From the NCBI RefSeq assembly GCF_036711975.1, contig NC_091972.1, forward strand, positions 3,043,001-3,107,000: a stretch of DNA of 64,000 nt, written 5' to 3'. The DNA is from Onthophagus taurus. Its lineage: Eukaryota; Arthropoda; Insecta; Coleoptera; Scarabaeidae. Position numbers and translations under genes: made by a program. The stretch's first letter is position 1, and the number at the start of each line of letters is the position of its first letter. Below, piece after piece: positions 3,300 to 28,600 of this stretch. The notes below the pieces were generated by a model. It was not told the DNA's origin and did not search any database. It worked only from the letters and a program-made list of their open reading frames with translations.

Positions 3300-3477
3300 A
3301 TTCTAGTTCTTGGTCTAACGCTGTATAACAATTAAAACTAGAACTAACACTAGGTGTAGTGTTAGTTCTAGTTTTATGCTAGCACTGTTACTATGTAGAA
3401 CTAACACTATACCTAGAATTAAAATTATTTGAGTTTAGTCGCACGTCTCTAAAGACGGCTAAACCCGAATGACTCTA
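3300..3477. repeat. Dispersed repeat with CTAGTGTTAGTTCTAG core, left block
   Basis: The block holds inverted and direct copies of ACTAGAACTAACACTAG and CTAGTGTTAGTTCTAGTTTT, a TAACGCTGTATAACAATTAA segment, and a small hairpin (GTCTCTAAAGAC, 3446-3457) followed by CGAATGACTCTA. The same pieces recur at 9077-9260, 12196-12235, 26990-27025, 35315-35355, 43500-43620 and 63000-63020. The family is not one I can name. Confidence 0.7.
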
Positions 3478-3939
3478 TGTAAAATAAATAAAAGCCGTAA
3501 TGAGGCTTAAACGATGTTTATTGGCAAAATATTATAAGTTCGGTGCTACACGTGTTTCGTATTATTTCCACATCAACAGGAACGACTACAAGATGAGAGA
3601 AAATACGTTAATTATTGTAAATTTAAATATAGATATACAGGGTGTTCAGGGGTCATTACGATCAAAAAATGGTATATCACCTATAGGCGAATTCGTCTTT
3701 GTTTAGGAGATATGGAAATAAAAAAAAAATAAAAATGATAAAAATAAATTTATTTATTTATGAATGGGTAGTTAATTAACACAAAATTACAGCAGCTGTT
3801 CAAAATGAGAACCACATTTTCTAAACACGCAGCCATCCTTCGTGTCATAAAATATTGCCAGTTAATTACTGCCAATTCATTCTTTATCGAATTAGTAGCT
3901 TCAACTATTCGCGTGTATCTGGTTTACGATTACTGCTAT

Positions 3940-4735
3940 ACACACGAGATTTGAGGCAACCCCACAGAAAAAAATCTAGAGGCGACAAGTCAGGTGACCG
4001 AGCTGGCCAATGTACAGGACCACCTCGTCCTATCCACCTTTCCGGAAAATTTTCATTAAGAAATACCATCACTTGTCTCCCAAGATGTGGTGGTGCCCCA
4101 TGTTACTGGAACCACATGCCACGACGAGCTTCTAGAGAAATATCTTCCGTGTAATTCGGCAATTCTTCTTCCAAAAAGTGAAAGTAAGTTTCTGCACTAA
4201 GACGTCCTTAAAAAAAATGAGGCCCAATAAGATGATTATTTAACAAGCCGTTTAACAACGATTGTTTCGTGGGTTTTGATCCGTCCAGATGTGAGAATTA
4301 CGTGTGTTGTTAATACCATTCCTTGCAAACTGGACCTCATCCGTAAAAAGTATGTATGAAATAACTTCTAAATTATTTTGAAATTACTGGAAATACCGTA
4401 CTCGATTTTCTAAATCTTGCGGAAGTAAATGCTGGACTTTTTCTAAATGATAGAGAGAGATAAAGACCATCATAATGCAGAATTCTCCTTACGTTGGTTT
4501 GAGGGATTCCCGTTGTATCAGATGGTATGAGATTGGTATGAGATTCTACGAATACTGGTAGAAGGACTTCGTTCAACTGCATTTAAAACTGCTTCAGCGT
4601 GCCAATTTGCATCTCTTTCTACAGGACGACGTGGGTCACTTTTGCACTTCCATTGCAAAAACCATATACGAAAACCATATTCTGCATTAGTAAGACTAAC
4701 GGTTCTGCCAAGACTAACTGTAAACTTTTTTAATT
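3940..4735 (-). pseudogene. Remnant of DUF4817-type mariner-like transposase
   Basis: Read on the minus strand, 3955-4110 encodes the C-terminal transposase motifs GAPPHLGRQVMVFLNENF and SPDLSPLDFFLWG, the region of the last catalytic D in this Tc1/mariner branch. Around 4590-4690 the N-terminal DUF4817 helix-turn-helix region is recognisable in broken frames (YGFCNG-like motif). Only about 0.8 kb lies between the two, far less than the ~350-codon gene of intact relatives, and stops and frameshifts are present. It is an internally deleted, inactive copy. Confidence 0.7.
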
Positions 4736-5094
4736 CCTTCAATATCTCTGAAATAAAGAGGAATTCACCTGTAGGTGATATACCATTTTTTGATCGTAAT
4801 GACCCCGGAATATATGAGGTTGCGCATATACCAGCCTGCGCAGTTGAAAAGTGCTGTTCCATCCGACCCGTGGACGTGCCGCGGACTGGTCGGCGACAAG
4901 TTGGCATGAGTTCCAACGACCGTCGGACGCGTTCATGTACGCGTCCGCGACAAGTCAAATGCGTACCTGGTTTCGACGATGTACGCTTTGTCACGTTCTT
5001 TAGCGCTTGCGCATAACAGAGCATAACTCATTTCCAATTGTGCAGCCGGTCTGTTTGTATCTCTTATGGGTATCTTTACGATCAAGCGGGTCTG

Positions 5095-5985
5095 TCACGA
5101 CGAGCTGAGTCTATATCTATGTGGCAAACTACTGGCACTATTTCTCTGAAAATTTGCATATAGCGTTTATCCGAGGTGCTCGTTTCAAATAAAATATTTT
5201 CTCCAACTTCCGGTTATACCGGAAATGGACCCCAACTTCGTTATTTTAAATGGAATGTACCAATTTTTATTGAATTTTCGAGATCCCCACCAAATTTTAA
5301 TATAATTTGATATAAGTCATCATATGTCTAGAGTGCATCATTTATGAATTATTTCAGTTTTTTCGAAAATTATGGCAGATGCAACCCTTCACAATAAAAG
5401 TAATTTTTCGAAATTACACTCGAGTCCGACCAAATATTCTCAGGGTTTGCACAGAGAGGACCCATAGTTTACATAACCCTTGAAAAGTTTTTTAAAAAAT
5501 TATACAGATTGGTCAGAAATTTTCCCCGAATTTCCCTATTTCGAAAAGTCGAAAACTTCATTTTTTTAAATGGCAACCCTAATTTGGGGGTTGATTTTCA
5601 AGTATTATGTAAGCTATGGGTCGTCTCTGTGCAAACTTTGGGAATATTTGGCCGGACTAGAGTGTAATTTCGAAATATTATTTTTATTGTGAAGCGTTGT
5701 ATCTGCCCAAATTTTCGAAATGACTGAAATAATTGAAAAATGGTGCACTCTAGACATATGATGACTTTATCAAATTGTATTAAAATTTGGCGGGGATCTC
5801 AAAAATTCAATAAAAATTGTTAAAATAACGAAGTTGGGGTCCATTTCCGGTATAACCGCAAGTTGGAGAAATCTGAAAATATTTTAGCTGGAACGACCAC
5901 TTCGGGTAAACCCGTATGTAAATTTTCACAAAAATAGTGCCAGTAGTTTGCCATATACATATAAAGACTCAGGTCGAGTTTCTGG
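5095..5985. repeat. Fold-back (long palindrome) element
   Basis: Arms of roughly 370-400 bp (5095-5465 and 5590-5985) are inverted copies at about 85-90% identity by eye. Shared landmarks are GGCAAACTACTGGCACTATT, CGGTTATACCGGAAATGG, CATCATATGTCTAGAGTGCA and CGAAATTACACT. A spacer of about 120 bp lies near 5466-5590. No coding content was seen. The transcript or single strand would form a very long hairpin. Confidence 0.8.
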
Positions 5986-6496
5986 TGTTTTGTTTGACAA
6001 ATTAATCAAAAAAGTGCAAAAACATGCATATTTTATTTCATTTTTCTAGTAAGGGTTATTACGTTTTTTTTACATTTCTAATTAATGCTACTTTAGTTCA
6101 TTATTGTTAAAAAAATGAGTAAATGGATTTCGTTTGAAATCATATATTGTGGCTGCAGCGCTAACTATCGGCAGGGTTGAATATAAAACGTACATAGAAA
6201 TTTCAAACCGTTCCAACAGCGTTGACGAAATGTACGCGTACACGAACGTGTCCACGGACGAACATGCGCAGAAAAAAGTCCTGTACTAGTCGTGTACGCG
6301 TACACGACGAGTCAAATTTGTGCGGTTGGAACGAACCTATGGTATAAGTTTGTCGGTAGAGTCACGGAACACCTGTATGTTAGGCATTAATTTATACTGT
6401 ATGTTTAGAAAGTAATATTTACCGTCATATGGCTACAGACTCAATTCAGCCAATAGACAACATTATAAGCGTGTTTAAAATACACCCAATTTTTTT

Positions 6497-8256
6497 TTAA
6501 CTTTCGGTTCAATTTGAATATCTGGTTTCTTATCTTACCATATTCAGAATATTGTCTTAAAGGAATATAAATATATTTTGGTGATTCAGCTTCTTGTGTC
6601 GAAAGCGATCTCTCTTTTAACATTTTATCTTCTTTCTGAGGAATGGAAGGAGTTTCAGCAGAAAAAGCTCTTCTCAAAGGTTCAGTTATAGTCGTTAAAT
6701 ATCCTGTGATTTCTTTATTAACTTGTTCTCCTTTAGTTTGTTTTGTTTCCTCCTTGTTTTTGTGATTTATATCTTGAATCAACTCTTCTTCAGGCTTAGT
6801 AACAATCTGATTATTACTGAAAATCACTGTATCTACTGAGTCAGCTGAAGTTGTTGAATCCTTACTAATTGGTCTTTTAATTGTTTTGACATCAAGCTTC
6901 TCTACATTTTTTTCTTGTGGTTCGGAAGATATCTCAACGACGTCTACACCATTTTCAATTATTACTTTAAGCTTTAAGTTTCTTTAAGTTTCTTCTTCAG
7001 CCGTACTAATTAAATCTTCGTTTTTAACATCGGATTTTAAATCAAAAGGATTTTTTTGTGATATGGGCGTCTCAATATTTTCAATCAAAATTGGTTGTGT
7101 TTCGGATGAAACATCAAAATCTTTACCTTTTTCAATTATTACTTTTAATATATCATTGTCATCTTTATCTACAAAGTTTTTAATAAAATCTTTTTCTTCA
7201 TTGATTATGTCGTTTTTTAAAACTTTATCCACAATTTCTTCTTTCATATTTTTAACTTTTTCGACATTATCTTCAAGATTTTCTTCTTCCACCAAAGTGG
7301 ATAATCTCTCTTTATCGTCAATAATAACCTTAGGAATAAATCTATGCTCTTTTCTAGATAAATATCCTCTAAATAAAGTTTGAATTACTATCGCAGCTTT
7401 TCGACGTTGCTCTTCGGTAAGTACATCGATTTTTCCACTTTTAAAACTAACATTTCTCCTGATCTTGTGACCTCTCCATACCGATTGAATCTTCGTGGCT
7501 GCTTTATTTTTGTAATTATCCATCTCAGAGATAATTTCTTTATTGATAGATGGTTGAACATCACCGCCAAAAATAGAATCAACTTCGTTATTTTTAATTT
7601 CTTCTTTATTCTCAGACGATTTTTCAATTTTCCTCAATCTACGTCTAGTTATAAAACTTCTTATCAAGGATTGTATTAAAATTGCTGCTTTTTCCATCGA
7701 CATCGATGAAGTTTCATTTTGTTTAGGAGTTTTATTTATTAAATTTTTAATGGGTGATTTGGTTTCTTCATTAGAAATAGTAGAACTTGAGGAAGATTTC
7801 GAAGAGGTTTTTTTCAGTTTATCCTTGTTTGTTTCCATACTCCACCGAAAGGATCTCGTTTTTTGGATTCCAAAGATTTCGATAGGCGACGTTTTTCGAG
7901 GATACATTTTGCTTTTTCATTTATGTTATCGTTTTGAGGGGTTCTCGGTGACAAGTTAGAGTCTACTTTAGCCTTGACGTTTCGTCTATTGATCCTGCGA
8001 ATAGGTAACAGAGGTTGTTAATTTTTTAATTTCATAGTTGTGCCAATTGTTGCTGTTTTAATTTTTAATGTGTCGTTTTTTGTGTATTCTTTACGTAAAC
8101 TCGATCTTCCAACTTTTGGTAAAGATACTGCTTAAAAATAAACATAACGAATTTTTCGTTTTTACCTTTATAATTTGCTTTATTTCTATTAGATAATAGA
8201 CGTGAAAAATATTCGGATGCAAAGGTGTAGATATCATCTGGTTTTTTTCTTAGCAC
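6497..8256 (-). pseudogene. Captured, inverted copy of the RIIa/IQ gene fragment
   Basis: This is a DNA-level copy of 16709-18510 of the plus-strand gene: the second half of exon 1 (KKPDDIYTFASEYFSRLLS), intron 1, and the first ~1.6 kb of exon 2 with three IQ motifs. Because intron 1 is retained it did not arise from spliced RNA. By eye identity is about 93-96%. Differences include a degraded splice donor, a 3-bp deletion, a 9-bp insertion (near 7060), a ~24-bp deletion near 6540, and a frameshifting insertion near 6975 that adds a stop. Open stretches remain (7907-6984, 307 codons; 6827-6441). The copy abuts the inner TIR on its low side. Protein function is unlikely; RNA-level effects are discussed in the findings. 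Confidence 0.9.
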
Positions 8257-8421
8257 CCAATGTCACATTGCTTACTTTACGTTTTTCAGATCATTCCCAG
8301 TCGAAAATTTTGATTGCTTTTATTCATGTACATTTATTAAAAAAGTTTTATAGAAAAAATTGGGTGTATTTTAAACACGCTTATAATATTGTTGCTTAAT
8401 ATCTGGTCTATCCCTGCTTAA

Positions 8422-8882
8422 TAGGGCCGTTAACTATTTTTTTTTATTGGCTCATTCGAAAGTTTTTTAAAATTGATTGACCCCATATTTTTTAATTTTT
8501 GATTCTGAGGCTTAGTTTTTCCAAAAAAAAATAATAAAGTTTGAAATTACAGGCCGCGAATTCAGTAGCGCGTCACTCAGATTTGAGCGTATGATTGGAG
8601 CGTATAAAAATCAATAAAATTCCTAGAGAGAGACAATGCTACGAATCTTATGCGCTAGAAGAAAACAGAAGAAAACGGGAGAGAAATCACGTCTGTGATT
8701 TCTTTCTTCTTACTTAAAACGTCACAATGAATCAGGGGTGGGGAATTTTAAACTTTTATATTAATTATTGCAAAAATTAAACAATTTTCGAACGTGAAAA
8801 CGTTACTAATCCGTCTAATTTAATTTACATTATCGATTTTTTGAAAGACGGTCTTTCTAATCGATTGACGTTAACGGCCCTA
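8422..8882. mobile_element. MITE with TTAA-type target site
   Basis: TAGGGCCGTTAAC at 8422 and GTTAACGGCCCTA ending at 8882 form 13-bp terminal inverted repeats flanked by TTAA (8418-8421) and TTGA (8883-8886), read here as a once-identical TTAA duplication. About 460 bp with no coding sequence. The TTAA preference suggests a piggyBac or Sola3 type helper, which is inference. It interrupts the right arm of the composite element. Confidence 0.65.
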
Positions 8883-9076
8883 TTGAGTCTGTAGCCATAT
8901 GACGGTAAATATTACTTTCTAAACATACATTAATACCTAACATCTATCTATATTTAGATTTACAATAATTAATGTATTTTCTCTCATCATAAGGCGAAAC
9001 ACGTGTAGCACCGAATTTATAATATTTTACCAATAAACATCGTTTAAGCCTCATTATGGCTTTTATTTATTTTACA

Positions 9077-9260
9077 TTGAGATTTCAAACGATGAAGCTG
9101 GAACAAACCTTAGCTTTACGAATGACTCTAGTTCTAGGTATAGTGTTAGTTCTAGTTTAGCCGCACGTCTCAAAAGACGGCTGAACTCGAATGACTCTAG
9201 TTCTTAGTGTAGCGCTACATAACAATTAAATCTAGCTGTCTAGTGTTAGTTCTAGTGTTA
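9077..9260. repeat. Dispersed repeat with CTAGTGTTAGTTCTAG core, right block
   Basis: Contains GTGTTAGTTCTAG motifs, the hairpin CGTCTCAAAAGACG (9163-9176) followed by CGAATGACTCTAG, and ATAACAATTAAATCTAG, the same modules as 3300-3477. Its last 13 bases (9248-9260) are the target duplication of the adjoining LINE. Confidence 0.7.
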
Positions 9261-16625: not shown

Positions 16626-19600
16626 ATGGCAAGTGAACCCGAAATGGTTGTAAAAAGAGTTAGTGTTCCTTTAGGTTTAGAAGAGCTTATGGAAACTTTA
16701 ACGAAAGAGGTGCTAAAGAAAAAACCAGATGATATCTACACCTTTGCATCCGAATATTTTTCACGTCTATTATCCATTAGAAATAAAGCAAATTATAAAG
16801 GTAAGTAATTAAAAATAGGTAAGAAAAATTCGTTATGTTTATTTTTAAGCAGTACCTTTACCAAAAGTTGGAAAATCAATCCAACAACCATCAACCAACG
16901 GGGGTTTACGTAAAGAATACACAAAAAACGACGTTTTAAAAATTAAAACAGCAACAATTGGCACAACTATGAAATTAAAAAATGAGCAACCTCCGTTACC
17001 TATTCGCAGGATCAATAGACGAAACGTCAAGGCTAAAGTAGACTCTAACTTGTCACCGAGAACCCCTCAAAACGATAACATAAACGAAAAAGCAAAATGT
17101 ATCCTCGAAAAACGTCGCCTATCGAAAACTTTGGAATCCAAAAAGCGAGATCCACCGAAAAGTACGGAAACAAACAAGAATAAACTGAAAAAAACCTCTT
17201 CTAAATCTTCCTCAAGTTCTACTATTTCTAATGAAGAAACCAAATCACCCATTAAAAATTTAATAAATAAAACTACTAAACAAAATGAAACTTCATCGAT
17301 GCCGCTAGAAAAAGCAGCAATTTTAATACAATCTTTGATAAGAAGTTTTATAACTAGACGTAGATTGAGGAAAATTGAAAAATCGTCTGAGAATAAAGAA
17401 GAAATTAAAAATAACGAAGTTGATTCTATTTTTGGCGGTGATGTTCAACCATCTATCAATAAAGAAATCATCTCTGAGATGGATAATTACAAAAATAAAG
17501 CAGCCACGAAGATTCAATCGGTATGGAGAGGTCACAAGATCAGGAAAAATGTTAGTTTTAAAAGTGAAAAAGTCGATGGAGCACTTACCGAAGAGCAACG
17601 TCGAAAAGCTGCGATAGTAATTCAAGCTTTATTTAGAGGATATTTATCTAGAAAAGAGCATAGATTTATTCCTAAGGTTGTTATTGACGATAAAGAGAGA
17701 TTATCCACTTTGGTGGAAGAAGAAAATCTTGAAGATAATGTCGAAAAAGTTAAAAATATGAAAGAAGAAATTGAGGATAAAGTTTTAAAAAACGACATAA
17801 TCAATGAAGAAAAAGATCTTATTAAAAACTTTGTAGATAAAGATGACAATGATGTATTAAAAGTAATAATTGAAAAAGGTAAAGATTTTGATGTTTCATC
17901 CGAAACACAACCAATTTTGATTGAAAATATTGAAACACAAAAAAATCCTTTTGATTTAAAACCCGATGTTAAAAACGAAAATTTAATTAATACGCCTGAA
18001 GAAGAAACGCTTAAAGTAATAATTGAAAATGGTGTAGACGTCGTTGAGATATCTTCCGAACCACAAGAAAAAAATGTGGAGAAGCTTGATGTTGAAACAA
18101 TTAAAAGACCAGTTAGTAAGGATTCAACAACTTCAGCTGACTCAGTAGATACAGTGATTTTCAGTAATAATCAGATTGTTACTAACCCTGAAGAAGAGTT
18201 GATTCAAGATATAAATCTCAAAAACAAGGAGGAAACAAAACAAATTAAAGAAGAACAAGTTAATAAAGAAATCACAAGATATTTAACGACTATAACTGAA
18301 CCTTTGAGAAGAGCTTTTTCTGCTGAAACTCCTTCCACTCCTCAAAAAGTCGATAAAATGTTAAAAGAGAGATCGCTTTCGGCACAAGAAACTGAATCAC
18401 CAAAATATATTTATATTCCTTTGAGACAATATTCTGAAGATGGTGATAATTCACCAAAAAATGAAATTGATAAGAAACCAGATATTCAAATTGAACCGAA
18501 AATTGAAAAAGAAATTATTATTTATTCTCCTAATAAAGAGATTTCTGAGAAGTCTAACGGGGCAATCACTGAATATATCAACTCTATAATCGAACCTGTT
18601 AAACAAAAATTTTCCCCTAACGGCACGGAATTTGTCTCAAAAAAGCCCACTGTTGTTGAACCTGAATATCAATATATTCCTCTTAGAACGTATAGTGAAG
18701 ATAAAGAAAATTTATTGAACGCAGCGAATGGAAAAAGTTATCAAGAAAGAGTAGAACATCACCTAAAAAATGGGGTGGAAGAAAAAACTGTTTCGGAACA
18801 AATCGATGATATAATTCAAGAGGCGAATCAAGTGGTTGGACATGATAAAGTTTCTAATCTTGATTCCTCAAACTTTGAGTCTAATGATTCAAGAAATAAA
18901 AGAGAAGTGAGTTTTAATGAAGATAAGAAAGAATCTGTATGTGATGAAAAAATTTCTGTAAATAATTTTACTAAGAAAGATATTGAAGAATCAAAGATAA
19001 AATTCGATGGTAATGAATTAAATAAAGTTGCTGATACCATCAAATCTGATCCACAAGAAAAAGAAAATTCTTTAAACTTAAATAAATTACATAAAGGAGA
19101 TACTCAAGAGGAACTTCTAAAAGAAAATCAATTAGAAAAAACTAATATTGAAGAAAAGAATAATGTTACAAAAAATAAAGCTAAAGTTGAAGTTGAAGCT
19201 GAGGAATCCGCAAGTTCAAATGAAATAAGTAAGAATGAAGAAAATTTAATTCAAGAAAATGGTGGTGGGAAAGAAATTAAGAACCCTAAAGACGATTCAA
19301 ATGAAAATAATGTCAATGTAGCAATTAAAGAGTCTAAAGAGATGGAAAGTAAACAATCTACGGATAAATCAAGTTTTTTAGAAGTTTCTCAAGTACAAGA
19401 ATTACAAAATAATTCTAAACTCACTGAAAATTGCTTGAAAAACGCTCCGAAAACAGAAATTATTAAAGATGTATCTGAATCAGATGCAAATCTGATTCAT
19501 CATAACATGGAACCACAAATTACATCTAAAGAAAAAGCTGAAAAAGATCAAGGAGAAAAATTAAATACGGATCAATCTGTTAAAAAAGAAAATAAACTTT

Positions 19601-22600
19601 CAGAAAGTGATCTAAAATTAAATAATCAAGATATTAAAACATCAGAAACTTGCAAAAGCAATTTAGAAACTGGTGAACTTTCAACAGATGATACTCTTGA
19701 TAATATAGCCTTGGATAGTTTAGAAAGTGAAAGTTTTCCGATAAATACTACGCAAGATGAAATAACCAAAATGGGCAAAGAACCTTTATTGCAAGATTCA
19801 GGCATGAAGGATGGGGTAATACAAGGTTCCCAAGATCTTAATGAAGGTGATGTTAAAAAAACTGAACTACAAAATTCGAATTATGATGATGATTTGTCAA
19901 AAAAGTTTAAATCAATGCATGACGTAGATGATGTTGTACATCTATCTAATGCTGAGAAAGCTACGGAAGTGGATACCAAATCACAAAAAGAAGGAGAGGA
20001 GTTGAAGATGGAGAAAAACGAAGTGATAAAGAATGATAAATTAATCCATGATGTAGTTTCTGCTGCAGAAAATCTTAAAAACGATGTACAGTTATCTAAT
20101 GGTGAGAAAGTAACGGAAATGGAATCACAAAAAGATGGCGAATTGGAATTGGGAAAAATCGAAAAAACTCCAGCTCAAGATTCAAATGATGGCGAATCAT
20201 CAAAGAGTGATAAATCAATTCATGATGTAGTTTCTTCTTCAGGGAATGTTAATAATGAAGTTGTACAGTTATCTAATACTGAAAAAGCAGTGGAAGTGGA
20301 CATTAAATCACAAAAAGGAGACGAAATGAAATTGGAAAAAAACGAAAAAACTCCAGCTCAAGATTCAAATGATGGAGAATCATCAAAGAGCGATAAATCA
20401 ATTCATGATGTAGCTTCTTCTTCAGGCAACGTTAATAATGATATTATAAAGTTATCTAATACCGAGAAAGTAGCGGAAATGAAATCACAAAAAGATGGCG
20501 AATTGGAATTGGGAAAAAACGAAAAAACTCCAGCTCAAGATTCAAATGATGGCAAATCATTAAAGAGTAATAAATCAACTCACGATGTAGATTCTTCTAC
20601 AGAAAACCTCAATAATGATGTTGTACAGTTATCTAACATTGAGAAAGCAGCGGAAGTGGACATTAAATCACAAAAAGGAGATGAATTGAAATTGGAAAAA
20701 AAAGAAAAAACTCCAGCTCAAGATTTAAATGATGGTGAATCATCAAGAAGTAATAAATCAACTCATGATGTAATTTCTACTACTGACAACATTAATAACG
20801 ATGTTATACAGTCATCTAACACTGAGAAAGCAACAGAAGTGGAAACTAAATCACAAAAAGGAGATGAATTGAAATTGGAAAAAAAAGAAAAAACTCCAGC
20901 TCAAGATTTAAATGATGGTGAATCATCAAGAAGTAATAAATCAACTCATGATGTAATTTCTACTACTGACAACATTAATAACGATGTTATACAGTCATCT
21001 AACACTGAGAAAGCAACAGAAGTGGAAACTAAATCACAAAAAGGAGATGAATTGAAATTGGAAAAAAAAGAAAAAACTCCAGCTCAAGATTTAAATGATG
21101 GTGAATCATCAAGAAGTAATAAATCAACTCATGATGTAATTTCTACTACTGACAACATTAATAACGATGTTATACAGTCATCTAACACTGAGAAAGCAAC
21201 AGAAGTGGAAACTAAATCACAAAAAGGAAACGAATTGAAATTTGGAAAAAATGAAGAAACTCCCGCACAAGATTTAAATGTTGGCGAATCATCAAAGGAT
21301 AATAAATCAACTCATGATGTAGATTCTTCTACAGAAAACGTCAATAAGGATGTTATACAGTCATCTAACACTGAGAAAGCAACAGAAGTGGAAACTAAAT
21401 CACAAAAAGGAAACGAATTGAAATTGGGAAAAAATGAAGAAACTCCAGCTCAAGATTCAAATGATGGCAAATCATCAAGGAGTGATAAATCAACTCATGA
21501 TGAACTTTCTTCTACAGAAAACGTTAATAATGATGTTATAGAGTTACCTAATACCGAGAAAGCAACGGAAGTGGACACTAAATCACAGAAAGAAGATGAA
21601 TTAAAATTGGAAAAAAACGAAAAAACTCCAGCTCAAGATTCAAATGATGGCGAATTATCAAGAAGTAATAAATCAACTCATGATGTAATTTCTACTACAG
21701 ACAACATTAATAACGATATTATACAGTCATCTAACATTGAGAAAGCAACAGAAGTGGAAACTAAATCACAAAAAGGAAACGAATTGAAATTGGGAAAAAA
21801 TGAAGAAACTCCAGCTCAAGATTCAAATGATGGCAAATCATCAAGGAGTGATAAATCAACTCATGATGAAGTTTCTTCTACAGAAAACGTTAATAATGAT
21901 GTTATAGAGTTATCTAATACCGAGAAAGCAACGGAAGTGGACACTAAATCACAGAAAGAAGATGAATTAAAATTGGAAAAAAACGAAAAAACTCCAGCTC
22001 AAGATTCAAATGATGGCGAATTATCAAGAAGTAATAAATCAACTCATGATGTAATTTCTACTACAGACAACATTAATTACGATATTATACAGTCATCTAA
22101 CATTGAGAAAGCAGCGGAAGTGGACGCTAAATCACATAAAGGAGAGGAAGTAAAATTGGAAAAAAACGAAGAAACTCCAGCACAAGATTCAAATGATAAA
22201 TTAAATGATGACTTAGTTTCTTCTACAAAAAACGAAAAACATAACACCAAATTATGTAACATAGAAAAAGCTGGACAAATAAACGACGAGACTCAAAAAG
22301 ATGACTTGAAGTTGGAAAAGGTTGAAATGATTCCTTGTGAAAGTTCTGATAATAGGAATGAATCACCAAAAAATGATGAACCAATCCATGATATACTTTC
22401 TTTAAAAAAACATGACACAAAATTATCTAATGTAGAAAAAACACAACAAGAAGAATTGTATACTGAAAGAATTGAATTGCCAAACGAAAATGAATCAACC
22501 CATCATTTGACCACAACTGATATAATTTCAACTCAGGACCGAAAAGGCGATGATGAATTATCAAAGAAAAAAGGTGTAAATGAAACGGAACAAGATACAA

Positions 22601-25600
22601 ATACAGACGAAATAGATGGCGGAAACAAAAACAAGAAAAATGAATCTAATGATGGAATCTTGAATAATGATAAACCAGAACATTTAAAAAAGGATGCTTC
22701 AAAAGTAGATGTTGCCGAAGAAGTCCAAGAATTAACCAAGGAAATTAATGGAAAAAGTAAAATCAATGAAACAGAAGAAAATAAATCGAAATCTGGTGGA
22801 GAAAACAGAATTGCTGTTACGCCAAATAATAAATCCCATGATATACAGTTGCAAAATGATAATACGCAAAAAATTGAATATATTGAATTAAGAAAGGATA
22901 TTGAATCAAATGATACAGAAAATAAAAATAAAAGTGACAAAAAAGATGAAACGAATTCGATTAAAGCAAACCAGTCTTCTGACAGCAATTTAAATATAAA
23001 TACTGAAGGCTTGGAAAAATTCAATGTTAAAATAGAGGGTAAAGATAAAATATTAAAATCCACGTTGCAGGATCCTGTAACTCTTAAAGAAAACCAAAAC
23101 ATCAAAGAGGTAAGAATAAATTTATTATTAAAATGCTTAAGATGCAGATATTATCCTATTATTTATGTTTATTATATTCCAGAATCAAATAAATACAAAG
23201 AATGCAAGTTTAAATGCAGATAGTAAATCTGAGTCTAACATACGAAATCGCAAAGAAATAACAACCAAACAACCATCAACTCTTGAATCTGTTTCGGAAG
23301 GTGCGTTAATTAGATAGTAAATAATTTGTGTTATTCAATCTGTGAATACATTTTTTTAGATGTTGATATCGGAGAAAATGAGTTAAAATCCAGCAATAAT
23401 AATTCTGAATCGAGCATGGATCATGGAACCACAAATTTATATATGTCAACTTTTAAAGCACCTACTTTTCCAATTTCTAATGGTAATATAACAGATAATT
23501 ACAAAATATATAAATTGGAACATCTTGGATTTGGTAACTGTTTGAATACAAAAAAAAATAGAGTTAGTTTTGAATTTAATTTTTTATTTAGGTGAAGATG
23601 TAGAGGGAAGAAAATCAATAAGTCCTACCGAAGTAAATTGTTCTACTTCAAGATCATTACCTTCATTACCAGAAGAAGACACGCAACCAGGTGAGTAATA
23701 ATAATTAAGAAATGAAATGATGTTTGTATTGTTCTTTTAAAAGGATGTGAGATATCGTCACCTTAATTAGCTATGATTTGGTTCAAAGCTAAAATTGAGG
23801 TTATAGTTGTGTGTAATGTTAAATTAGGTGTTGTCGTAGTCAACCGTGAGCCCTAATTTGCCCTAATTCTAACAAGATAATGTACATTTATATTGTTTTA
23901 AGTAACTTTTGAAGTAAATGTTTGTGTTTTTTTAAATTTATTTACTTTTGTAAAGTGACAACTGTTACGGTTTTGTCTTATTTTCGGAGATGGTGTCCCG
24001 TGCACGAAAAATTCTAGACATGGCTCTTCAAAAGCTCCCAATTTTCGTGGATTCTCAACTACGTAACATTGTGGAATATACTGTAGTTCAAGAACTTCTA
24101 AATCCAATCAACAGAACACAGCAAGGAATTTACAAGATGTGGAGATAGAAGTTAGTGAAGTATACTTCTTATCTAAAGATACGTTGGAAGACGAAAACAT
24201 AGAAGTTACTGAGAAAAATGCCAATGAGGCGTCACAAACTGAAGACACAGATTATCAATCTGCTGTAGTTCAAAGTTGCAAAGAAAAAGATTCGGAGCCT
24301 AACTCATCGGAAGATATTTCTAGGGGTGAAATTGTGAAAAGCAGTGTGATCAAAATACTACTAAAACATCAACAGTCGAAGATCCAGATTATCGACCTAC
24401 TGAAGAATTGAATAGCGAAGAAGAAAATGTGGAAAACGAAGAGCCTTTGCGAAGAAAAAGACTGAAAAGAAGACACGTTAAAAAAGGCAACTGGAAGAGG
24501 GAGCAGAATAAAAGAAGAAGAGAGCTAGGCGACTCGTATAAAGGAAAAAAGATTGTTGATGGGAAATGGGAATACTTCCAAAGCAAAAAATCTACCAAAA
24601 ATAAAGGTTCAGCAAAAAAGTCTACTTTAAAATGTTATTTATTTTCTGAGGAGGATAGAAAATCAGAATTCGATAGTTTTTGGGAATTGAGTTGGAAAGA
24701 AAAGAAACTTTTTGTGCAGCTGAATATGAAATTGGGCGAAACTCAACAACATAGAGATCGAAAAGAAGAGGAGAACTCACAAAGGGTAAATAGCTTTAGT
24801 TACTATTTACGAAAAAAACAATGAACCACTCAAGGTGTGCAAAAGAATGTTTCTTAATTCAATGGGAATAGGAGAATGGACAGCACGTTCCTGGAAACGT
24901 GAAAAGGAAGAAGATGAAAAAAAAGAAGCTGACGAAACTATAGAAATTGAGACAAACCGGAAAAATGAAGACCCAAGTCAAAAGAAAAGGAGAAGATTGG
25001 ATGTTACAAGAATAGATTCCCTTAAATTATTTTTTGAAACTCTGCCAAAGATGGAGTCGCATTACTGCAGATCAGCATCTAAGAAATTATATCTCGAACC
25101 ACAATGACAGTCCAAACAACAGTTGTATGAACTCTACAGTTCTGCTAAGCTCCCAGCCATCCTCTCTGTTGACGTTATTTTTATGTCGGTGGATCTCTAT
25201 GGCTTCTCTTGTCAGTCTTTAGTAGTATCTGTTGTCCCTAGCCAGCACCTTTGTTTGTTCGAAGTCTATTCGGTGCCCCTCTGCATGGCAATGTTCCGCA
25301 ACCGCCGACTGCTGGATCTTCTTCAGCCTTACATCCCTCTCATGCTCCTTGATGCGGCAGTCGACGTTGCGTCCAGTTTGGCCAACATAAACCTTCCCAC
25401 AACTACACGATAGTCGATAGACTCCTGCTCCTTTTAATGGAGTTAGTTTGTCCTTGGCTATCGGGAGTGTGTTCCGAATTTTGCTGACCGTGCCGTACCG
25501 CACTACGATGTCGTTCTTCTTGAGGTGCCTAGCAATTCGTTCCGTTACACCTGAAACATAGGGAAGACAGATAAATCCAAGTGGTTTTGTGCCTACCGTG

Positions 25601-28600
25601 TCTTCTTTCTGCTTTCGCTGCTTGATGGCCTGGTTGATGTCCCTCGAAGTGTATCCATTCTCCTGCAGCACGCCTCGTAGAAAGTGTTGCTCCTTCTTCA
25701 AGTTCCCTCCTTCACATAGTCTCGCTGCTCGTTGAAATAATATACGGATCATGGACCTCTTCTGTTGGGGATGATGATGTGAACATGCCTGTAAATACCT
25801 GTTGATATGGGTCTTCTTTCGGTATACACCAAGTTCTATATCTCCATTTGTCGTCCTGGTGACCAACACATCTAGGAAAGGTAGTTTTTTGGCAGTTTCT
25901 GTTTCCATGGTGAACTTAATCATGGGATGTTGAGAGTTCAAAGAGAACTCTTGGAGCCGTTTTTGACCATGTTGCCATATCACAAACGTGTCATCCACAT
26001 ATCGGAGACATAGTTTTGGTTTCCGCTGGCTCTTCTTCAAAGTGTCCTCTTCGAATAATTCCATGTAGAAATTAGCTATAACTGGCGAAAGTGGAGATCC
26101 CATGGCTGCCCCTTCGAACTGCTCGTAGAATTCTCCTTTCCAGCTGAAATACGTCGACGATAAGCAATACTCCACCAGATCTGGCACGTATTCTGGTAAA
26201 CCCTCCGGAATGAGTTTTCGGCGAAGACCCTCTACAGCATCCTTAACTGGTACCCTAGTAAAAAGGGATTCCACATCGAAACTTACCAACATATCACCAG
26301 CATCCGGCTTTACACCTTTTACCGATTCCACAAAATGTGTAGAATCCCTGACATACGATTCCGTGTTACCTGTAAAGGGAGACAGAATCTTTGCAAGATG
26401 TTTGGCCAGCTGGTATGTTGGGGAGTTGATGGCGCTGACGATAGGGCGGAGGGGTACGTCTGGTTTGTGAATCTTCGGTAGTCCGTAGATTCTTGGTGGT
26501 ACCGGCGCCTGCACAAACAAACCTTTCTGCTGTTCTGCTGGAATTCCTGTGGATTTCATCAGTTCCTTCATTTTCCTTACGATTTTGTCTGTGGGGTCCT
26601 TCTTGATCTTCCTGTAGGTGGCTGGGTCCAGTAGGTTCATCATTTTGTCGTCGTATTCTTTCCTGTCCATAACAACGGTGGCATTCCCCTTGTCTGCTGG
26701 TAACACGACGATTTCTGATTTTTCTTTTATAGATCGGAGTGTCTTCTTTCCACCAACCGTCAAGTTGGATTTTGGTGGTTTTGCTGACTTCAATACTCTC
26801 GCAACTTCTTGTCGGATCTCTTCGGCTTTCAGTGCGGGCATCCCTCGAACAGCTGCTTCCACTTCGCAGATGATTTCCTCCTTTGGGACCTTCTTCGGGG
26901 CGATTGCGTAGTTCAATCCTTTGGCGAGCACAGAGGTTTCGTCTTTCGTTAGTGGGACATTCGATGTAGCACGGAAAACCCGAAAGTTTCTAGTGTTAGT
27001 TCTAGTTTTAGTTCTAATTTTAGTTTACTTGTCACATGTTCAAAAAGCTCGTAAACGACTAGAACCATATCAAGTAAAATATTTAGAGTACAGTTTTTTC
27101 TGAAATTTTAGCAGCATGCAGTCTATACCTTCTATTAGGCCAGGAAAAGATCAGGAGATCTTACTGCAACTGACTTGCGTGAACTACGTTATAACCCAAA
27201 TGGTACACTTGAATTTAAGCTTCGACACACTGAGGACTGGCAGCCTCTCCCAATTAGAGCTAACAAAAAGGTCTATCAAGTCTATCAACTCTATCAAGAA
27301 AAATTGAAAATTAACCAAGAAAAGTTTCAACATCTCCAGGCATTAAAAACCACATGCTGTCTGATTACCACACATTCTATGATAACTTACAGCATCATTA
27401 AAATTTTGTTTTTCAGAGTGAAATTAATGCAAGTTCTAAGAAATATATATTTTTTTAAATATTTTTTTGAAGTACCTTTCTGTTTAATTTCAAATAAGTA
27501 AACACTGATCATCAACAAAACTATTTCGTCATCATTTCTAATGATGTTATGACCTCGTAACTCCAGATACTTTGGGATTTAATGGAAAAACCTCGTAACT
27601 CCATTGTAACACCTAAGTATTGTATGGATCTTTAAAAATATTGATATAACTGATAAACTAGCTACTTACAGTTATACATATGAATAGAGACTGTCCTTGT
27701 TGAAAAAACTGTAAAGATAGATAAATTTATTTGTTTCCTACAAATTTTGTCATTTGGGAGTTATGAGGTTTGCTAATTAGGGTGACGTTATATCTTTTTT
27801 TCTAATAATTTAATTTTCGTTTAATTTATTTTGAAGACGATGTAATAAAAGAAACAGATTCAGTATCAGAGTCAAAGTCGGAGCCTTTTTATTTACATCG
27901 TCAGGGTGATTCACCAAAACTGATAGCTTCGAGCGACCAAGAAAAAGCTTTTTCAAAAGCTTTCCAAAAAACGAATGGTATAAAATATGATTCAGTCCCA
28001 ATTAGAGGAAACTTGGGAAGTTCTGGGTCATCGACCGAAGAGCTAAATTGTGAATCAAATATTGATTCGAGACATAATAAACCATCATCACCTCATCCAT
28101 CAGTTCAATGCAACATCTCTGTGGTTGATGGTTCTTCACCTACATCCGCTCTCCCTTTGGCATTGGAAATGAGCCAATCAGCAGGTCGAGTATTTGTAAT
28201 CATAGTAAGTAAAATTCACATTCCATCTCACTCGCACCGCCTACAACCGCTTTCTTCCTACTGGATACTAATTTTTATTTCAATCAAGGGCACGTGTCTA
28301 TTTCGAACCGAGTACCCTTACGAAATCGAACGCCATTGAATAATTTAGTAACTCGGTGCTATTTTCGTGCGAAGCCCACACAAACCGCCGTCACGCAGTT
28401 TCGATTTTTTACTCAAATCGATATTCATTTCTTTTTTGTGTCATCCTTTCTTTTTTTTTCCGTTGTAATCATCAAGTTTTTGACGCCTGGCACTGTTTAG
28501 TTTGCGCGGCAAATGACGAGTAAGTACGAAGGCGAATGTTTCGTGTTCAGCAGGTGCTGCGTTCGTGACGGAAACGACTTTATCTGGCGCGCAAGCGCAA

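Follow-up and report, generated by a model that had tools for sequence, protein, structure and literature searches.

The window (the whole stretch of 64,000 nucleotides analysed here, from Onthophagus taurus) carries an RIIa/IQ gene on the forward strand (16626..23223), with its ATG at 16626, the RIIa domain in exon 1, an intron at 16801-16852 (called by reading frame and GT-AG ends), and a long exon 2 with IQ motifs in three stretches. A partial copy of this gene lies inverted 8.5 kb away, on the reverse strand (6488..8257), and comprises part of exon 1, the intron, and part of exon 2; it aligns in minus orientation over 1.77 kb to its source in the parent, 16709-18516, beginning 3' of the ATG and stopping inside the long exon 2. 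The alignment confirms an earlier note on this DNA, in which an intron-bearing RIIa/IQ fragment was described as sitting inverted between inverted arms at this distance from its parent; the identity of 96.3% over 1736 ungapped sites (45 transitions, 19 transversions, and 9 gaps; K2P 0.038 +/- 0.005) also bears out the fairly young event proposed there from ~93-96% similarity by eye. The copy retains the intron, minus deletions of 9 and 5 nt, and contains a stop codon and frameshifting gaps; its differences from the parent fall 27/16/16 on the three codon positions, without an excess at the third. In a genome search with the captured sequence, the parent was the only other copy found.

The copy is framed by two terminal regions of a Penelope-like retroelement (PLE), arranged head to head with their 3' ends outward, one tailed and the other not. 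A 12-bp target-site duplication, CGAATGACTCTA, lies at the arm ends as an exact match between 3466..3477 on the left and 9119..9130 on the right. The left arm, on the reverse strand, has a tailless outer part (3478..3637), which carries the 3' end of an unspliced PLE intron as well as a hammerhead-like motif, and an inner part (6378..6495), which carries the 5' splice site of that intron and has its own last 8 nt (6488-6495) in common with the gene copy. The right arm, on the forward strand, has an inner part (8258..8422; 89% to locus L030 and 83% to L033) and an outer part (8882..9076) covering the intron region, in which the 3' splice site is lost to deletion, together with a portion of the hammerhead-like motif; it continues into a 42-nt tail found on this arm only (9077..9118, forward strand), which contains the sequence that in relatives starts the PLE ORF (ATGAAGCTGGAACAAACC). 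The right end had been placed at 9076, and is thus corrected to 9118, 42 nt further on and directly before the duplication. The gene copy ends where the PLE arms start on both sides, with a few bases, counted by eye, common to both partners at each junction. The inner inverted repeat (6457-6495/8354-8392; 39 nt, 97%) adjoins the gene as the note had it on the left alone; its right half is separated from the gene by about 95 bp of PLE sequence (8258-8353), which has no counterpart in the left arm.

The arms are inverted, as had been stated, but do not form continuous repeats, since each is interrupted by a later insertion. The left arm contains a mariner-like element (3638..6375, boundaries by eye), probably of mariner type to judge by its inverted ends (3645-3729/4726-4810), the TA at 3636-3637 and 6376-6377, and transposase-like fragments; it is interrupted in turn by a second insertion (about 4807-6365), with an imperfect palindrome (5101-5976) inside. 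The right arm contains a small inverted-repeat element with AGGGCCGTTAAC ends and a possible AT duplication (8423..8881, boundaries likewise by eye, with L030 for comparison).

By sequence, the arms at 3478-9118 are assigned to the terminal region of a PLE, because the arms of relatives adjoin coding sequence for a reverse transcriptase (RT) and a GIY-YIG endonuclease (EN). The relative at L044 has an 842-aa ORF matching RVT_1 (9.4e-16) and GIY-YIG (2.4e-6), and RT/EN coding sequence occurs inside the head-to-head relatives L044-L048 and L056; at L037, L040, and L043, pieces 29-53% identical to the L044 ORF lie upstream of window-like arms on the same strand, and at L042 such an arm is embedded in RT/EN-related sequence. 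Transposase-like ORFs between the arms of relatives fall in nested insertions, leaving RT and GIY-YIG as the family's own coding capacity. The inserted copy at 3478-9118 is itself without a PLE ORF, and no intact helper with window-type arms was found, the RT-bearing copies of that subfamily being all broken. Further PLE traits of the element are its short target duplication (variable in PLEs, here 12 bp) and its one-arm tail (here 42 nt; optional and of 30-40 bp in PLEs), and of its family RT with GIY-YIG, head-to-head pLTRs, and an intron kept in some copies. The hammerhead-like motif gave 123 genome matches, 100 of them listed, against 0 in the control; its core is non-standard by eye, and it matches no Rfam hammerhead family. 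Rfam gave no match at gathering score in the window, and for L033 and L036 just sub-threshold matches, to unrelated families.

The PLE intron, with GT-AG ends, is complete in the left arm, and L032 and L036 lack exactly this segment; in a loose count by script, 7 of 30 motif copies had the 3' splice site, 8 were spliced-like, and 15 were left undecided. Its retention in the arms and absence from relatives imply that unspliced RNA served as the template here, and intron retention in the gene copy thus does not exclude an RNA origin. The earlier exclusion of a spliced-RNA route on the strength of the retained intron is therefore correct as worded but misleading, as unspliced PLE RNA was reverse-transcribed at this very locus.

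The arms, the tail, and the duplication recur as a unit elsewhere in the genome. Among the 128 distinct motif sites listed, neighbours within 10 kb of each other are arranged head to head in 19 cases (a lower bound for the genome), on the same strand in 9, and tail to tail in 0, where about 0.6 pairs would be expected by chance. An exact duplication of 8-14 bp together with exactly one tailed arm is found in 16 of the 19 (window included), while among 342 mismatched arm pairs duplications of at least 9 occur in 17 and of at least 8 in 40; set against the 12 bp of the window, one such pair gives 12 and one gives 16. Of the remaining three, L052 lacks an exact duplication, while L056 and L058 belong to tandem arrays, where ends are not scorable. 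In the window, the flanks rejoined without the insertion align across the join to satellite units, at best with 92% over 118 nt and a 1-nt gap.

The suggestion that other members would carry other cargo was not borne out: no host gene was found in the other 18 listed head-to-head pairs, leaving the window insertion as the sole case. Content between the arms was judged by tblastn and ORFs for L044-L052, by tblastn for L056, by self-alignment for 16 pairs (all except L056 and L058, the latter judged by its tandem-array position alone), and by middle segments for nine. When the middles of these nine, all short pairs or part-pairs, were set against the other fetched loci, eight matched other PLE loci, and the 189-bp middle of L049 had no match among the other fetched PLE loci; L060 and L061 are palindromes with no middle, L061 being near-perfect (99.6% over 847 nt). 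L049 was also considered as a second capture, for 1.6 kb without a PLE ORF, and rejected, this stretch being a nested repeat inside one arm with 70 listed genome matches, in some cases two from a single copy. The 19-base end given in the earlier note does recur, though rarely, with 4 exact genome matches, two of them the window's own; allowing 2 mismatches was uninformative (25+22 matches against 47+43 in a reversed control).

We consider it highly probable that 3478-9118 is one PLE insertion with local capture of a piece of the neighboring gene, whichever the template. In the proposed course of events, the PLE enzyme would cleave a satellite repeat on its two strands, and the ends so freed would each prime cDNA synthesis on unspliced PLE RNA, beginning at one of two neighboring start sites; before the two cDNAs joined, synthesis would switch at a few shared bases to the gene 8.5 kb off and copy 1.77 kb of it. 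Later, the gene copy decayed and three further insertions entered the arms. Copying of the gene piece most likely took place during insertion; arm-arm and copy-parent differences per site (0.039, from 9 differences in 232 aligned sites computed piecewise with the pieces left unjoined, and 0.037) are compatible with joint entry without proving it. Under joint entry and free evolution, arm-arm divergence could reach twice that between copy and parent.

For the template itself, we give nascent unspliced pre-mRNA of the RIIa/IQ gene an even chance. It is favored because the copy starts after the ATG, has its other end within the long exon, and shares the sense of the left arm, as would be expected had reverse transcription proceeded from that arm into the gene RNA. 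Against it, a random RNA in a 291-Mb genome would be very unlikely to originate only 8.5 kb away, and a DNA template accounts for this distance at least equally well. Somewhat below an even chance, in our estimate, is the other branch of the same reading, in which the PLE insertion is unchanged and the gene piece was copied from DNA to fill a break from the neighboring locus, either during insertion or later at the fragile center of the palindrome. The location of the template on the same chromosome speaks for this, as does the expected fragility of near-perfect palindromes such as L061; the short bases shared at both junctions are expected of it too, but fit either template. Two points, neither strong, speak against it: judging by the ORF, the copy stays inside transcribed sequence and has pre-mRNA orientation, and the PLE RNA templates here are themselves unspliced.

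That the gene copy is an inverted segmental duplication of host sequence, caught by chance between two unrelated PLE copies, would account for its proximity and orientation, but is very unlikely: the arms, with a tail on only one of them, and the 12-bp duplication make up a single insertion unit, as in 15 other pairs, the rejoined flanks match uninterrupted satellite units, and the gene copy stops at the start of the arms on both sides. More improbable still is a Pack-type TIR DNA transposon with an acquired host gene fragment, the form in which capture had been proposed. Pack-MULEs and Pack-TIR elements carry a gene fragment between inverted repeats, are flanked by a target duplication, and are DNA transposons moved by transposase. 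Inverted arms near the gene copy and a flanking duplication are indeed present, and capture of a nearby gene by a mobile element stands; but neither true TIR ends nor a transposase-coding relative was found for the window element, whose arms are PLE ends beside RT/GIY-YIG coding sequence in relatives, with both spliced and unspliced copies, and whose ends are unequal, the right one lying 42 nt past the counterpart of the left. Moreover, 13 loci from the first arm search showed no convincing second arm in opposite orientation (the one weak match is of 42 nt at E 1e-4, in L037; in L036, three copies lie on one strand), and their mutual similarity continues past the supposed element end. A Helitron and a plain LINE were dropped on the RT/GIY-YIG sequence and the tail.

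Capture of a host gene by Penelope elements is already known from the rotifer Adineta vaga, where, as described, an intron-containing NRPS gene is enclosed by Penelope terminal repeats, one copy of them inverted, with a target duplication of 8 bp and no PLE sequence inside; capture of host spacers is also reported, as is a tail that one inverted repeat may carry (PMC3846280). Both cases, as far as that account goes, present an intron-bearing host gene framed by Penelope repeats and a target duplication; the A. vaga gene is described with all its introns, two direct pLTRs and one inverted, at a new chromosomal location, whereas in the window a fragment is framed by just the two inverted arms, and its parent lies 8.5 kb away (PMC3846280). 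Terminons, giant PLE-related elements with hammerhead motifs at rotifer telomeres, are reported often to capture host genes between adjoining elements, in a review that also refers to the A. vaga findings as PLE transduction; they are described as telomeric head-to-tail arrays, unlike the head-to-head arrangement with target duplications seen here (PMC6431247). In LINE-1 chimeras, mRNA fragments are reported to be joined to element cDNA by twin priming or template switching, antisense pieces being attributed to twin priming; they resemble the window in uniting foreign RNA and element cDNA in one insertion, but are described as mammalian and without head-to-head element arms (PMC13174262). Our literature search, which covered few subscription journals, found no PLE gene capture outside rotifers.

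Gene copies that keep their introns are usually taken for DNA duplications; the PLE frame, with its tail and target duplication, shows that some at least can arrive with a retroelement insertion. It is possible, at slightly less than an even chance, that Penelope RT can, after a two-strand cut, jump from its own RNA to nascent pre-mRNA nearby; if so, local intron-bearing copies would be annotated as DNA-level segmental duplications. For PAc, a PLE of the green anole, two neighboring RT start sites are reported to define the tail, both target strands to be cut and extended, and a hammerhead to lie near the ORF start; this is in vitro biochemistry of one element, described with no captured gene (PMC11167929). 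The head-to-head insertions found here constitute a natural data set for that two-strand, two-start-site model (PMC11167929).

The structure is an insertion of a Penelope-like retroelement (PLE) with a captured gene fragment; the earlier note, which took it for a Pack-type DNA transposon, was right that a gene fragment sits in a mobile-element insertion, but the element calls for a different explanation. Used as a genome query, the right arm gives 18 matches; 13 loci holding such matches resemble one another past the arm limit, and in each of them the arms stand in a single orientation (bar one 42-nt match in L037, E 1e-4). The arms of L037, L040 and L043 are like those of the window (68-81% over 55 to 210 nt), and upstream of them, on the same strand, lie pieces 29-53% identical to an 842-aa ORF of locus L044, which matches the Pfam domains RVT_1 (9.4e-16) and GIY-YIG (2.4e-6); in L042 the arm sits inside sequence like this ORF (41-58%), and L050 has one piece 45% identical to it. 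Reverse transcriptase (RT) and endonuclease coding sequence lies between the arms in L044-L048 (five of the first nine pairs examined), and also in L056. In L056 and L058 the arm runs on through ATGAAACTGGAATCC into open sequence that resembles the L044 ORF at its start; the window's right-arm tail, a 42-nt extension, thus corresponds to the PLE ORF start. A second, different PLE-type ORF (601 aa, minus strand, RT domain with RVT_1 1.3e-12) occupies window positions 25219-27024.

The insertion spans 3478-9118, because similarity to the window reaches 9119 in L035 and L038, CGAATGACTCTA starts at 9119 and also directly precedes 3478, and the window flanks, rejoined at this duplication and aligned to other loci, match satellite units across the join in L032, L033, L048, L053 and others (best match 92% over query positions 1-118, including one 1-nt gap and reaching 28 nt past the join); the terminal inverted repeats proposed to end at 3478 and 9076 are thus misplaced on the right, where the end is 9118. 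The remaining right flank aligns to the satellite as a separate match. Satellite with TCTAGTGTTAGTTCTAGTTT units lies at window 3300-3477 and 9119-9260, and at or near PLE insertions in L032, L033, L034, L036, L048 and L053. The duplications of the window insertion and of L048 are satellite sequence, and this satellite is possibly a preferred PLE target.

The arms share a motif, CGAAAC-ACGT-GT-N-GCACCGAA, which at no more than 2 mismatches has 123 genome hits, against 0 for the reversed pattern used as control; 28 further sites from another search bring the first 100 listed to 128 distinct sites among the matches listed. These 128 form 28 neighbour pairs at most 10 kb apart (about 0.6 expected by chance), 19 of them head to head (3' ends outward), 9 on the same strand and 0 tail to tail. 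The motif is hammerhead-like, with a variable 4-nt loop (ACGT, AATT or ATAT at the sites in L030-L061) and, by eye among the matches listed, A, C or T but never G before GCACC; the window family has the core CTGNNGAT, against CTGATGA in the standard hammerhead. An Rfam search did not recognise the motif, which is possibly a variant hammerhead. Near the start of contig C12 (G000:C12:526-10741), PLE motif copies recur every 3162 bp about a head-to-head centre, with three copies on one strand and two on the opposite one.

All 19 head-to-head pairs, the window included, were searched for exact duplication at their ends, which is present (8-14 bp) in 16; each of these 16 has exactly one tailed arm, six right and ten left. 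L052 has one tailed arm, yet no exact duplication; L056 and L058, inside tandem arrays, are not scorable, the 16-bp match of L058 being ORF sequence. When left arms were paired with right arms of other loci, at least 9 bp was reached in 17 of 342 trials and at least 8 bp in 40, so that L054 (8 bp) and L049 (9 bp) are weak individually. Within a PLE arm of L049 (372-1985) a 1.6-kb dispersed repeat is inserted, with 70 matches among those listed, some split in two, and six full-length at 91-100%, its own locus counted.

Base-by-base alignment shows 6488-8257 (1.77 kb) to be the reverse complement of 16709-18516 in the parent gene, with 96.3% identity over 1736 ungapped sites (64 differences; K2P 0.038, rough error 0.005) and nine gaps. 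The copy begins within exon 1, which encodes the RIIa domain, 3' of the ATG at 16626, and stops within exon 2, which encodes the IQ motifs (three stretches); it keeps the intron, minus 14 nt. The alignment shows frameshifting gaps in the copy and a GAG codon turned into the stop TAA; its differences from the parent fall 27/16/16 on first, second and third codon positions (about 535 sites each), with no third-position concentration. At about 7841-7852 TCCACCGAAA (parent 17150-17163) is swapped for its own reverse complement, to judge from the alignment apparently a micro-inversion. Besides the copy and its parent, a genome search with the copy returns one further match, an 84-bp PLE stretch at C7:36273356; this aligns to the PLE part of the query, not the gene part. 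The parent's long exon carries tandem repeats, mostly of 183 bp (61 codons), at 20028-22000.

The window's left arm reads ...ATATGACG|GTAAATATT...CTTGTAG|TCGTTCC..., where L032 has ...ATATGACG|TCGTGCC... and L036 is alike; the PLE therefore has a GT-AG intron, exactly lost in some copies and kept in others. In the right arm a deletion spans the 3' splice site, but the beginning and body of the intron remain. Unspliced PLE RNA was therefore reverse-transcribed, and the captured gene's intron does not speak against an RNA template: intron retention excludes a spliced-RNA route, as had been claimed, but not RNA generally. Aligned piece by piece, the arms differ at 9 of 232 sites; joint entry followed by free evolution would predict an arm-arm rate 1-2 times the copy-parent rate, with which the data are compatible, as a fit and not a proof. 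The nested insertions, with boundaries by eye, are later than the PLE insertion. In the left arm they are a mariner-like element and the element that interrupts it; the right arm has a small element with inverted repeats.

For one PLE, the purified protein is reported to cleave the two target strands and extend each, reverse transcription beginning at two neighbouring internal sites whose intervening stretch is the tail; no difference in start site between strands was found (PMC11167929). That result does not directly explain the strict one-tail pattern; holding in 16 of 16 scorable pairs, it would not be expected from two independent initiations without strand preference. Authors of published PLE work prefer an antisense template with self-priming, unspliced sense RNA still being allowed. 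In the window, the joining of two PLE cDNAs would have taken in sequence of a neighbouring gene; the PLE/gene junctions share few bases (about 4-6, by eye). The position of the parent, 8.5 kb away in 291 Mb, indicates a template available nearby in the nucleus, as nascent RNA or DNA itself. Followed inward from the left flank, the sequence is first PLE and next gene, each running 3' to 5', the product that would be expected of a reverse transcriptase switching from PLE RNA to sense pre-mRNA, and copying from nascent RNA, with which this strand order agrees, has an even chance of being correct; read from the right side, the same product would require antisense RNA. Copying from the DNA itself is only slightly less likely than copying from nascent RNA.

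Other members of the family, which the earlier note had proposed to check for other cargo, exist as the 19 head-to-head pairs, but gene capture is found in one, the window's. A captured gene of the same kind in a Penelope insertion was known before from one rotifer. The window insertion is ordinary in each tested respect except its content.
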